Translations under genes and position numbers: made by a program
Notes under the pieces: model-generated
Told to the model about the DNA's origin: nothing
Databases searched by the model: none
Seen by the model: only the letters and a program-made list of their open reading frames with translations
Shown: piece after piece, positions 2-2,431 of the stretch
Numbering within the stretch: position 1 is the first letter of the stretch
How the letters are laid out: the number at the start of each line of letters is the position of its first letter
Source of the DNA: Bacteroidales bacterium
Lineage (GTDB): Bacteria > Bacteroidota > Bacteroidia > Bacteroidales > UBA12481
Length of the DNA: 39,069 nt
Direction: 5' to 3'
Assembly (NCBI GenBank): GCA_012523435.1
Contig: JAAYIP010000318.1
Span: 1 to 39,069, forward strand

Positions 2-763
2 CGGGGTCAGATTTTAGCCATAGCACCTGATTACGAGGTCGATCCATCCAAAACCTCCGACTTGATACGGAATCACACCGAACAGTTACCGGTTTTAAAT
101 GGTGCTATTGAGGAGGTCAAGGCGATACGTCGTATCACCGGGGGGAAGGTTTTAGTTGGGCAGAGTGCCAGCGAGGGGCGGTTTAAGCAGTTATCGCCCA
201 ATTATGGAATTTTGCATCTAGCGATGCATACGATTACCGACCGATATAATCCGATGAATACCTGCCTGGTCTTCACGCCTGGTGAAAAGGGGAAAGAGGA
301 TGGGTTACTCTATGCGCATGAGCTTTACAATTCCTCCTGGAAGGCTTCATTGGCTGTGCTTTCAGCCTGTGAAACCGGCTCGGGGCAGATGGTCACTGGG
401 GAGGGTATTTTGAGTTTAGCGCGTGGTTTTATTTTTGCTGGTTGCCCGAATTTGATCATGACCATGTGGCCGGTTGACGACCTGTCGTCGCAAGAGGTCA
501 TGGAGCATTTCTACCAGGCTATCTGGTCGGGGGAAGCGTTAGCTGATGCTTTGGGCCAAGCCAAGCTCCGGTACTTGGAGTCTGCTGATAAGTTACACGC
601 CCATCCTCACTTTTGGGCTGGTTACCTTTTTCTGGGGAGCAACACGCCTTCTCCGGTTACCCCCCAGCCTGCCAGATTTTGGCTGGCCATTCCGGTCATT
701 GTTTCCTTCCTTGCTCTTCTTGTCCTTTTTCTCTTTTTATTCAGATTTATCCGAAAGCCTTGA
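2..763 (+). CDS. CHAT-domain cysteine peptidase, C-terminal part (cut by left window edge)
   Basis: The frame is open from base 2 and the true start lies outside the window, so only about 254 C-terminal residues are seen. It opens with a GQILAIAPDY segment and continues into a CHAT (caspase-like, TPR-associated) fold. Both expected catalytic residues are present: the His of LHLAMHT (codon 227-229) and the Cys of LSACETGSG (codon 368-370). The C-terminus carries one strongly hydrophobic helix (roughly the last 28 residues) followed by RFIRKP. By the positive-inside rule this puts the tail in the cytoplasm and the CHAT domain in the periplasm. Relatives usually have N-terminal TPR repeats, not visible here. 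It ends 29 bp from the convergent anti-sigma gene. Peptidase activity and substrate are inferred; the CHAT assignment is firm. Confidence 0.88.
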   Translation, partial: RGQILAIAPDYEVDPSKTSDLIRNHTEQLPVLNGAIEEVKAIRRITGGKVLVGQSASEGRFKQLSPNYGILHLAMHTITDRYNPMNTCLVFTPGEKGKEDGLLYAHELYNSSWKASLAVLSACETGSGQMVTGEGILSLARGFIFAGCPNLIMTMWPVDDLSSQEVMEHFYQAIWSGEALADALGQAKLRYLESADKLHAHPHFWAGYLFLGSNTPSPVTPQPARFWLAIPVIVSFLALLVLFLFLFRFIRKP

Positions 764-792
764 TCCTGAGCTGCTTGTTAACGGTCAGCTAC

Positions 793-1830
793 TTACTTCA
801 ATCTTTTCTCGATTTTAGGCAATAGGGCTTCGGCTTGTTCCGAATAAAAATGGTTTGAATCGGACTTCATCTCTTGCAATAATCCAATGGCTTCTCCGTA
901 TCTACGCTGGGTGATTAAGGCCCCAGCCAGGTACCATTCCATCTGATCAGAGATAATTGCCTCACGGCTGATTCGTGTCAGGTACTGTTCTGCGAGTTTT
1001 GGATCTCCGGCGAGATAGGCTGACATTCCAGCGTAGAGCAGAACGAAATCATCGCTAACTCCAGCTTTCATGCTTAGTTCCATCATCTCCAAAGATCCGT
1101 TGTAATCACCTTCATTAAATTTATTGACTCCTGATCTAAAAATCACCTGATCGGCCTCAACGGGCCCACGATATTGGGTTAAGCCTGTGTATGGTTCAAA
1201 AAATGGTTTGTCGGGTGGCTGTCCAACACCATATTGAGATGTTAGGAAAGCGATAGATGCAGAAGATATGATTAAGAAAGCAATTGCTGCAGCAGCCACG
1301 GCTTTGATGGATTGCCACCTCCGTCTTAAGGAATAGGGTTTGGTTTGGGCGTTCACCCTGTTCGCAATTCCACTGAGGGTCTCTCTTAACTCAGCAACAT
1401 CCTCTTCCATAATAGCTTGGTCGACCTCACGGCTCAAGCGCCCTAGGTTGTCGCCGGAGTATTCCGGAATCAGCGAGGAGGTTCCATCATCGACAAATGA
1501 GGAGCGAATTGTATCCAACTGTCTGACAAGAGTTTCGCTATTCATTTCGTTAATCGAATTATCAGCTGACCCAGATTGATCCGGATAAAGAAATAATGGC
1601 GCTTCGGTTATCAGATCCCGGTTATCCATACGGATTTTCACCAATCTATCCCGAAACCGGCGCATCTCCTCATCCATGAGCGACTGGTCGACTTCTTTAT
1701 GAAGTTGAAACAGAGCTGCAAATTCGGGATCATTCTCTAGGCGAGCTTCAAATTTCCGCTTTTGGGACAAGGTCATCTCCTCCCCCAAATACTGATCAAA
1801 AAGTTCGCTTAATTCAAAATCACCATTCAT
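793..1830 (-). CDS. Presumed membrane-spanning anti-sigma protein with TPR-like periplasmic domain
   Basis: A 345-residue protein whose start overlaps the end of the ECF sigma gene by 11 bp, the usual arrangement for a sigma/anti-sigma pair. The N-terminal ~170 residues are acidic and look cytoplasmic, a single membrane helix sits at about 177-196, and the ~120 C-terminal residues are helical with a TPR-like pattern (alternating Y/A/G positions in FNEGDYNGSLEMMELS and YLAGALITQRRYGEAIGLL). There is no zinc-binding HxxxCxxC motif, so it is not a ZAS-type anti-sigma factor. The cytoplasmic part contains a duplicated motif: residues 43-66 and 132-155 share L-x-[KR]-EVDQ-x-x-M-[DE]-E. The anti-sigma role is inferred from position and topology. 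A plain TPR membrane protein is the alternative. Confidence 0.72.
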   Translation of the reverse strand: MNGDFELSELFDQYLGEEMTLSQKRKFEARLENDPEFAALFQLHKEVDQSLMDEEMRRFRDRLVKIRMDNRDLITEAPLFLYPDQSGSADNSINEMNSETLVRQLDTIRSSFVDDGTSSLIPEYSGDNLGRLSREVDQAIMEEDVAELRETLSGIANRVNAQTKPYSLRRRWQSIKAVAAAAIAFLIISSASIAFLTSQYGVGQPPDKPFFEPYTGLTQYRGPVEADQVIFRSGVNKFNEGDYNGSLEMMELSMKAGVSDDFVLLYAGMSAYLAGDPKLAEQYLTRISREAIISDQMEWYLAGALITQRRYGEAIGLLQEMKSDSNHFYSEQAEALLPKIEKRLK

Positions 1831-2431
1831 CTTTTAGATATTTAAAATTTAGATCGTTCTGTATTCTCTTAATCAACATATCCTTACACTCGTACTTTTT
1901 CTTTTTCAGAAAGTGCTCACTTCTCACATTCATGATTCGAGCCATCTCTTTCAGCGGAACTTTCCTGAGCACTAACTTCAGAATCTCCTGGCACTCTGGC
2001 TTCAGAGTCTTAAAGTGCTTTTGGTATAGACGGTATCGCTCCTGCTCCTTATACTCCTGTTCAATCTGGTCGTCAATCTTGATGTAAACTTCATTCTCAG
2101 TCAACGTTGTCAGTTTTATCTGACGGTTGTCCAGTTGTTGCAACCAGAGCAGCCTGCAAACTGAATACAGGTAGGACTTGAACGCACAAGTCAACTCCAG
2201 ATCATCCCTTTTGATCTTTTTATATATCAAGATCATAGCCTCCTGGAACACATCCTGCGCATCTTCGTCCGATCCGCTGTTTCTAATGACAAAGAACCTA
2301 ATAGACGGATAATACATCCGATAAACATACTCTAACACAGCACCATCACTCGAACGCAATCCTTCGATTATCGCCTCAACGGTGTAGTGCACTAATTGTT
2401 TATCAGGATTTTTATGAAAAGGGAACCCCAA
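1820..2431 (-). CDS. ECF-type RNA polymerase sigma factor
   Basis: A 203-residue sigma-70 family protein of ECF architecture. Region 2 is seen around residues 35-95 (YRMYYPSIRFFVIRNSGSDE, then DAQDVFQEAMILIYKK, then the SYLYSVCRLLWLQQL stretch). Region 4 is at about 130-195, with the recognition-helix part being LKEMARIMNVRSEHFLKKKK. The start used is TTG at 2429-2431; no ATG occurs before residue 38, well inside region 2, so a TTG or the GTG at codon 14 must be used. The anti-sigma-like gene overlaps its end. Region 4 is lysine-rich and lacks the usual xVKSR sequence, so promoter recognition may be unusual. Sigma family is clear; target genes are unknown. Confidence 0.87.
   Translation of the reverse strand: MGFPFHKNPDKQLVHYTVEAIIEGLRSSDGAVLEYVYRMYYPSIRFFVIRNSGSDEDAQDVFQEAMILIYKKIKRDDLELTCAFKSYLYSVCRLLWLQQLDNRQIKLTTLTENEVYIKIDDQIEQEYKEQERYRLYQKHFKTLKPECQEILKLVLRKVPLKEMARIMNVRSEHFLKKKKYECKDMLIKRIQNDLNFKYLKDEW

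Follow-up and report, generated by a model that had tools for sequence, protein, structure and literature searches.

The window analyzed here is the 39,069-nucleotide (nt) contig JAAYIP010000318.1 of the Bacteroidales bacterium assembly GCA_012523435.1; it is an entire contig of a 2.6 Mb draft genome, and its base 1 is the contig end. At its left end lie three genes that probably make up an envelope signaling switch: the 3' part of a TPR-CHAT peptidase gene (2..763, + strand; open reading frame with a Pfam CHAT match), a gene for a single-pass anti-sigma factor of 345 residues with a tetratricopeptide repeat (TPR) domain (793..1830, – strand; open reading frame, supported by conserved sigma overlap and architecture), and a gene for an extracytoplasmic function (ECF) sigma factor (1820..2431, – strand; TIGR02937, E = 3e-16). 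An earlier note on this DNA, made from its letters, had described a CHAT gene converging on an ECF sigma gene that overlaps the gene of a single-pass protein with a TPR-like C-terminus. This arrangement was borne out, with the CHAT gene on the + strand facing the anti-sigma and sigma genes on the – strand, which overlap each other by 11 nt.

The CHAT reading frame encodes the C-terminal 253 residues of a CHAT-domain protein and is open at the contig start, where its 5' end is lost. The Pfam CHAT (PF12770) match (E = 1.4e-42) covers positions 99-288 of the 289 in the profile, so the first third of the CHAT domain and any TPR part or signal peptide are missing from the window copy. Both residues of the catalytic dyad of a CHAT peptidase are present, and both were invariant in the aligned relatives: His H76 (codon 227..229, +), aligned with the 'CH' of Csx29, and Cys C123 (in SACETG; codon 368..370, +). 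The pair was kept in 131 of 133 linked CHATs, the other two having gaps in the alignment. A membrane helix at about residues 227-247 (680..742, +), found in nearly all relatives, is followed by the basic tail RFIRKP. What the note had called an intact His/Cys CHAT domain with a membrane helix and basic tail thus stood for dyad, helix and tail, and fell short for the first third of the domain. The note had also proposed extending the left edge to look for TPRs and a signal peptide. A search of the genome's own assembly with the N-terminal 705 residues of a relative found nothing of the missing 5' part; full-length relatives carry both features. The window's CHAT gene was the sole one found in its genome.

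The TIGR02937 match spans residues 33-173 of the sigma factor, which has regions 2 and 4 of an ECF sigma, with Pfam finding region 2 only. The true start is more likely the GTG at 2392 than the TTG at 2431, because the TTG overlaps a conserved promoter motif. Its partner has the make-up of a transmembrane anti-sigma, with a gene overlapping that of the sigma, a cytoplasmic N-terminal part and one membrane helix, and it presumably binds and inhibits its sigma. The cytoplasmic part (1300..1830, –), presumably the one that binds sigma, showed in alignment a repeated EVDQxxMEExxxxLRxxL motif; copies like EVDQAIMEEDVAELRETL number two clear ones in the window, roughly four in same-genus relatives and one in distant ones. 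Basic residues on the cytoplasmic side precede the membrane helix, residues 178-196 (1243..1299, –), and beyond it come a linker and a TPR domain, residues 226-345 (796..1155, –), assigned by AlphaFold2 and Foldseek. The model gave this domain, at residues 226-344, a predicted local distance difference test score (pLDDT) above 90. Its TPR similarity was suggestive only from the single sequence (E 0.06) and clear in both profile and model.

Scanning a species-genome collection with the CHAT alignment yielded 80 loci from Bacteroidales, Cytophagales and Saprospirales. The trio recurred in the same genus and order with the CHAT gene convergent to the anti-sigma and sigma genes. Among the 80 CHAT loci, 28 had this arrangement (A-type, CHAT> <ANTI<SIG) and 13 had the CHAT gene placed between the anti-sigma and sigma genes (B-type, <ANTI CHAT> <SIG), while 4 carried a divergent pair (D-type) and 2 a single co-directional run (C-type). 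When only the 48 well-flanked loci were counted, 30 were A or B, with both partners adjoining the CHAT gene, and 11 had neither partner. The first 1.5 kb downstream of CHAT at the 80 loci held 41.6 sigma genes per 100 kb, and the stretch at 4.5-8 kb held none (0 per 100 kb), which places the arrangement far from chance. Of 37 genomes sampled across the class for a full-length anti-sigma relative, 35 encoded CHAT as well, mostly within a few kb; among the 60 nearest genomes, CHAT was present in 21 of the 23 that were anti-sigma-positive and in 14 of the 37 that were anti-sigma-negative. Linkage recurred across families in differing arrangements and surroundings, and where one genome held multiple paralogous copies, each kept the trio. 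The linkage of CHAT, anti-sigma and sigma is conserved across Bacteroidia; co-occurrence of the three families, which the earlier note had named as its check, was found in related genomes and throughout the class, and its proposal is not refuted on this count.

Other contexts of these families were also seen. Four genomes of one family (G060, G144, G163, G165) carry about 9 to 28 paralogous anti-sigma genes each, many without an adjacent CHAT gene. At eight loci (L036, L039, L043, L044, L148, L158, L187, L193) CHAT is followed by a gene of about 800 codons, which in L043 is MutS2/Smr-like; there, a Por secretion-tail protein gene precedes CHAT. Another CHAT paralogue, without sigma, lies at four loci in genomes of the window's family (L111, L125, L126, L127) beside open reading frames of sizes suggesting the ribosomal str operon.

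Full-length CHAT relatives were mostly about 920-1130 residues long. They begin with a signal peptide or lipobox, continue through TPRs into the CHAT domain, and close with a C-terminal helix and its basic tail; TPR_12 matched with E down to 1.6e-44, which makes these relatives TPR-CHAT proteins. The N-terminal signal peptide together with the C-terminal helix places their CHAT part in the periplasm. In the anti-sigma, the order of cytoplasmic part, basic residues, helix (178-196), linker and TPR domain leads to the same compartment. The CHAT domain and the anti-sigma TPR domain are thus predicted to share the periplasmic side of the inner membrane, as the earlier note had read from the charge pattern, and an opposite-side topology was not found. 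An AlphaFold2 model of the full-length CHAT relative from G003 (pLDDT 81) gave as its Foldseek matches, best first, Csx29 (8eey_B, E 4e-17), separases (E ~1e-13) and the transmembrane anti-sigma DdvA. The analogy to Csx29 that the note had drawn therefore holds at the level of fold.

Alignment of 40 anti-sigmas left two invariant columns: R221 in the linker and W299 in the TPR domain. R221 (codon 1168..1170, –) lies 25 residues past the membrane helix in a low-confidence, disordered stretch of the AlphaFold2 model, and is proposed as the P1 residue of a CHAT cut between the R and G of YRGP. Arg occupied this site in 91 of 106 CHAT-linked anti-sigmas; in the wider set, sites without Arg frequently held Met, Leu or Lys, with a small residue next in line. 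Where needed, we read the linkers by eye to assign P1 classes ahead of the column scan, which compared 117 Arg-type with 16 Met/Leu-type linked pairs and ranked all CHAT columns by how well they separated the two. The best-separating column was E38 (codon 113..115, +), with Glu in 114 of the 117 Arg-type pairs (one Ser, two gaps) and in none of the 16 Met/Leu-type pairs. In the model this residue sits in the helix of the alpha1 region, corresponding to E788 in helix 783-796 of the G003 protein. Clan CD peptidases carry a P1-binding residue at the start of helix alpha1, Asp163 in gingipain and Arg64 in caspase-3, and the loop and helix that follow a later strand supply a second P1 contact (PMC4626109; PMC4357240). 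E38 may accordingly be read as a candidate S1 residue recognizing the P1 Arg. D160 (in WPVDD; codon 479..481, +) falls in the region of the second contact and also varied with P1 type, being Asp in 116 of the 117 Arg-type pairs and replaced in 11 of the 16 Met/Leu-type pairs. As a main specificity residue it was set aside as weaker than E38, since it stays Asp in the other five. Csx29 aligns a Ser at the D160 column; its cut in Csx30 falls between residues 427 and 429, and M427 is needed (PMC10028731).

On the best tree, four P1-type changes were required, equal to four independent contrasts, and E38 agreed with P1 type in nearly all random pairings. The proposed CHAT cut would most likely fall outside the TPR domain, at R221 of the juxtamembrane linker, because R221 is near-invariant in a disordered linker and co-varies with E38 at a P1-recognition position. 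The earlier note had taken linkage as the evidence for a functional connection; linkage is no longer the sole evidence, since R221 and E38 change together.

From the computed linkage, architecture, topology, Csx29-like fold, promoter motif (described below) and co-variation of the cut site with E38, we infer a three-gene envelope switch, a reading we consider probable, in which a periplasmic TPR-CHAT protein acts as site-1 protease of the anti-sigma and so releases the ECF sigma. The CHAT cysteine peptidase would be exported through its signal peptide and, with its C-terminal helix as the inner-membrane anchor, would turn its TPR sensor and protease domains toward the periplasm, while the anti-sigma would cross the membrane once, by a helix joining its sigma-binding part in the cytoplasm to its TPR domain in the periplasm. 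Upon activation, the CHAT protein would cut the anti-sigma linker after R221. A general intramembrane protease would then degrade the remaining stub and so free the sigma. From a GGGGTTACC...GGATTAA promoter, the freed sigma would transcribe both its own gene and a few others that encode secreted or surface proteins. The intramembrane cut and the release of sigma are modelled on RseA-type systems. The earlier note's broader claim, that CHAT cuts or binds the periplasmic part of the anti-sigma and thereby frees the sigma, gained from linkage, same-side topology, fold and the R221/E38 pair; of its two options, we believe that cleavage is the one these results favor.

Several observations weigh against a cleavage switch. 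Arg is also common at the R221 site in anti-sigmas without a CHAT gene nearby (42 of 61), and for 21 loci the P1 class was assigned by hand. Strong branches of the tree force only one P1 transition, and shared ancestry could underlie the E38/P1 link; the tree-aware sign test had four contrasts, too few for significance, and the helix bearing E38 was hard to align in the Met/Leu types. Among CHAT-less genomes, the five that have a full-length anti-sigma were mixed at the R221 site, which was missing in G134, G117 and G245, ambiguous in G154 and retained as Arg in G323. Loss of the site in all CHAT-less genomes had looked clean in an early small sample, and was dropped once all five full-length cases were taken. 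In three genomes of the same genus (G001, G005, G006), which have other CHAT genes elsewhere, the corresponding locus retains the sigma/anti-sigma pair but no CHAT, and the window's own CHAT copy is without its N-terminus.

The persistence of the Arg in sigma/anti-sigma pairs without a neighboring CHAT would also fit a CHAT protein that binds and does not cut. As a sensor or co-anti-sigma, its TPR/CHAT domain would dock on the TPR domain and the juxtamembrane Arg motif of the anti-sigma, much as RseB does on RseA, with another protease making the cut. Such a binding contact would also suit the conserved linkage, the TPRs of both partners and the co-variation of E38 with R221. However, the catalytic His and Cys were kept in all 131 linked CHATs that could be aligned there, the co-varying column lies in the region of the substrate pocket, and its partner position falls in a linker whose disorder is typical of cut sites. 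We therefore regard binding without cleavage as unlikely, and the cleavage switch as the better account.

Comparison of upstream regions in relatives revealed a shared motif, GGGGTTACCTTTT-N10/11-GGATTAA. Exact matches to its 13 bases numbered 16 in seven genomes compared to 5 for the reversed control. It was located at the sigma gene in five genomes (G002, G003, G005, G006, G007) and before genes for predicted secreted proteins in five (G001, G003, G004, G005, G006). The window carries a promoter-like variant, GGGGTTCCCTTTT-N12-GATAAA (2399..2429, –), at the same place as in the former five genomes, and we propose it as the autoregulatory promoter of the sigma gene. The two-part pattern had just two matches in the window's genome, at the sigma gene (2399-2429, –) and at G000:C208:310-340, both carrying the same variant (GGGGTTCCCTTTT and GATAAA) at equal spacing. 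These observations suggest that the sigma is autoregulated, that its regulon is small, and that it changed in step with its promoter. From G000:C208:310 onward (L411, 310-1470), this same variant precedes genes for two membrane proteins of 231 and 85 residues. In four loci (L398, L399, L400, L422), the motif-bearing genes encode predicted secreted proteins in which SprB-like repeats were recognized by eye (CTASG...PILCNGGTATVTI...PYSFTFNGQT), which suggests surface or gliding proteins as the putative sigma targets.

A GG-type peptide of 43-46 residues with the pattern EMxxVRGGDG...DIIL (MERLNLSSMMVAALANDEMLVVRGGDG...EEDIIL and kin) is encoded divergently from CHAT in four relatives; these gene regions lie at L032 6089-6446, L034 11458-11898, L042 5745-6076 and L037 1553-2406. 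The exact sigma-type motif was present upstream of the peptide gene in L032, L042 and L037, and an AACCTC variant in L034. A gene of the size of a C39-peptidase exporter follows the peptide gene in L032, L034 and L042 (three genomes: G003, G007 and G008), identified as such by Pfam in L032, and a gene of HlyD-family size also follows in L032 and L042. In the genus or family of the window, an exported peptide might bind the TPR part of CHAT, trigger the anti-sigma cut and amplify its own production, a form of protease-gated peptide signaling that is possible, if rather doubtful.

The promoter-like motif that relatives carry between genes, upstream of CHAT, could also be taken to mean that CHAT is a target of the sigma, which would be released by another envelope protease and would express CHAT as an effector acting on other periplasmic proteins; gene orders that are convergent or divergent rather than a single operon are in keeping with this. 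The motif upstream of CHAT, however, points toward the divergent peptide gene and not toward CHAT, and an effector role leaves unexplained both the P1/E38 co-variation and the B-type loci. We thus consider such a role quite improbable, and more so the idea that the genes are neighbors by shared inheritance of a slow-changing locus, with no functional contact and a co-variation reflecting two old subfamilies: gene order beyond the sigma gene is indeed kept within the genus and the one forced P1 transition would fit, yet the linkage recurs in different arrangements and surroundings across families and paralogous copies each keep the trio, which makes mere inheritance very improbable.

Directly behind the sigma gene and on the same strand, the window contains a bacterial class A ribonuclease P (RNase P) RNA gene (2574-2928, –; 2.4e-85). 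Relatives have a gap of similar size where the window has this gene.

Among the closest known systems, Csx29-Csx30-CASP-sigma (Craspase) of type III-E CRISPR (clustered regularly interspaced short palindromic repeats) shares with the trio a TPR-CHAT peptidase, an inhibitor that holds an ECF sigma, and cleavage in a flexible loop (PMC10028731), the last being conditional for the trio. In contrast to Craspase, the CHAT of the trio is predicted to be exported and membrane-anchored, the anti-sigma is a transmembrane TPR protein, and the signal must be periplasmic and not a target RNA. Membership in the Csx29 family itself was rejected (NF041237, 13.7 bits against a cut-off of 300, E = 0.021). No PADLOC family was matched by the three window proteins or a full-length relative, and no CRISPR-like array was found among the window's tandem repeats, the upstream side of CHAT being covered in relatives because the contig end adjoins the gene. 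With neither a Cas gene nor a CRISPR array in evidence within this scope, the earlier note's description of a counterpart without CRISPR was upheld.

DdvA (PDB 8rot, 8rw5) joins a CHAT domain and a transmembrane anti-sigma in one pathway and, in addition to its fold match, gave the CHAT profile its top-ranking sequence match in the PDB (E = 0.00023); the DdvA chain contains a CHAT domain by sequence. Literature searches returned nothing on the DdvA structure. DdvA unites both functions in one polypeptide, whereas the trio consists of separate proteins with a conserved linker site, and a DdvA-like fused CHAT anti-sigma was rejected on the separate genes of the window and its relatives. For ECF54, CHAT-domain genes occur in the context of an ECF sigma and proteolytic control has been proposed, with no anti-sigma (PMC8999054). 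The trio differs in that it includes an anti-sigma, in which one specific site is a candidate for the cut, and the overlap of the anti-sigma gene with the sigma gene places the window sigma outside ECF54, as judged by gene context. Separase (clan CD, C50) resembles the trio's CHAT protein in combining helical repeats with a caspase-like domain, P1 Arg and acidic S1 residues (PMC4626109), but is eukaryotic, is not exported and has cohesin as its substrate.

CHAT control of an ECF sigma in type III-E CRISPR, which is known from experiment, the ECF54 context and the structure of a CHAT-bearing transmembrane anti-sigma are thus already on record. In the literature searched we found no description of the Bacteroidota trio, a widespread set of separate proteins comprising a periplasmic protease, an anti-sigma and a sigma, for which both a cut site and a promoter are predicted. 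If our reading is correct, the chromosomal TPR-CHAT proteins of many Bacteroidota would be site-1 proteases of envelope signaling, and the system would offer one predicted cut site, a swappable specificity residue and a predicted promoter, with cultured relatives that include Prolixibacter and Marinifilum. Such a pathway would share with the regulated proteolysis of RseA and RsiW a single-pass anti-sigma, a first periplasmic cut near the membrane and stepwise release of the sigma, all as proposed for the trio. It would differ from both in that the site-1 protease is a clan CD cysteine peptidase and not DegS or PrsW, with the TPR-CHAT protein itself as the sensor.

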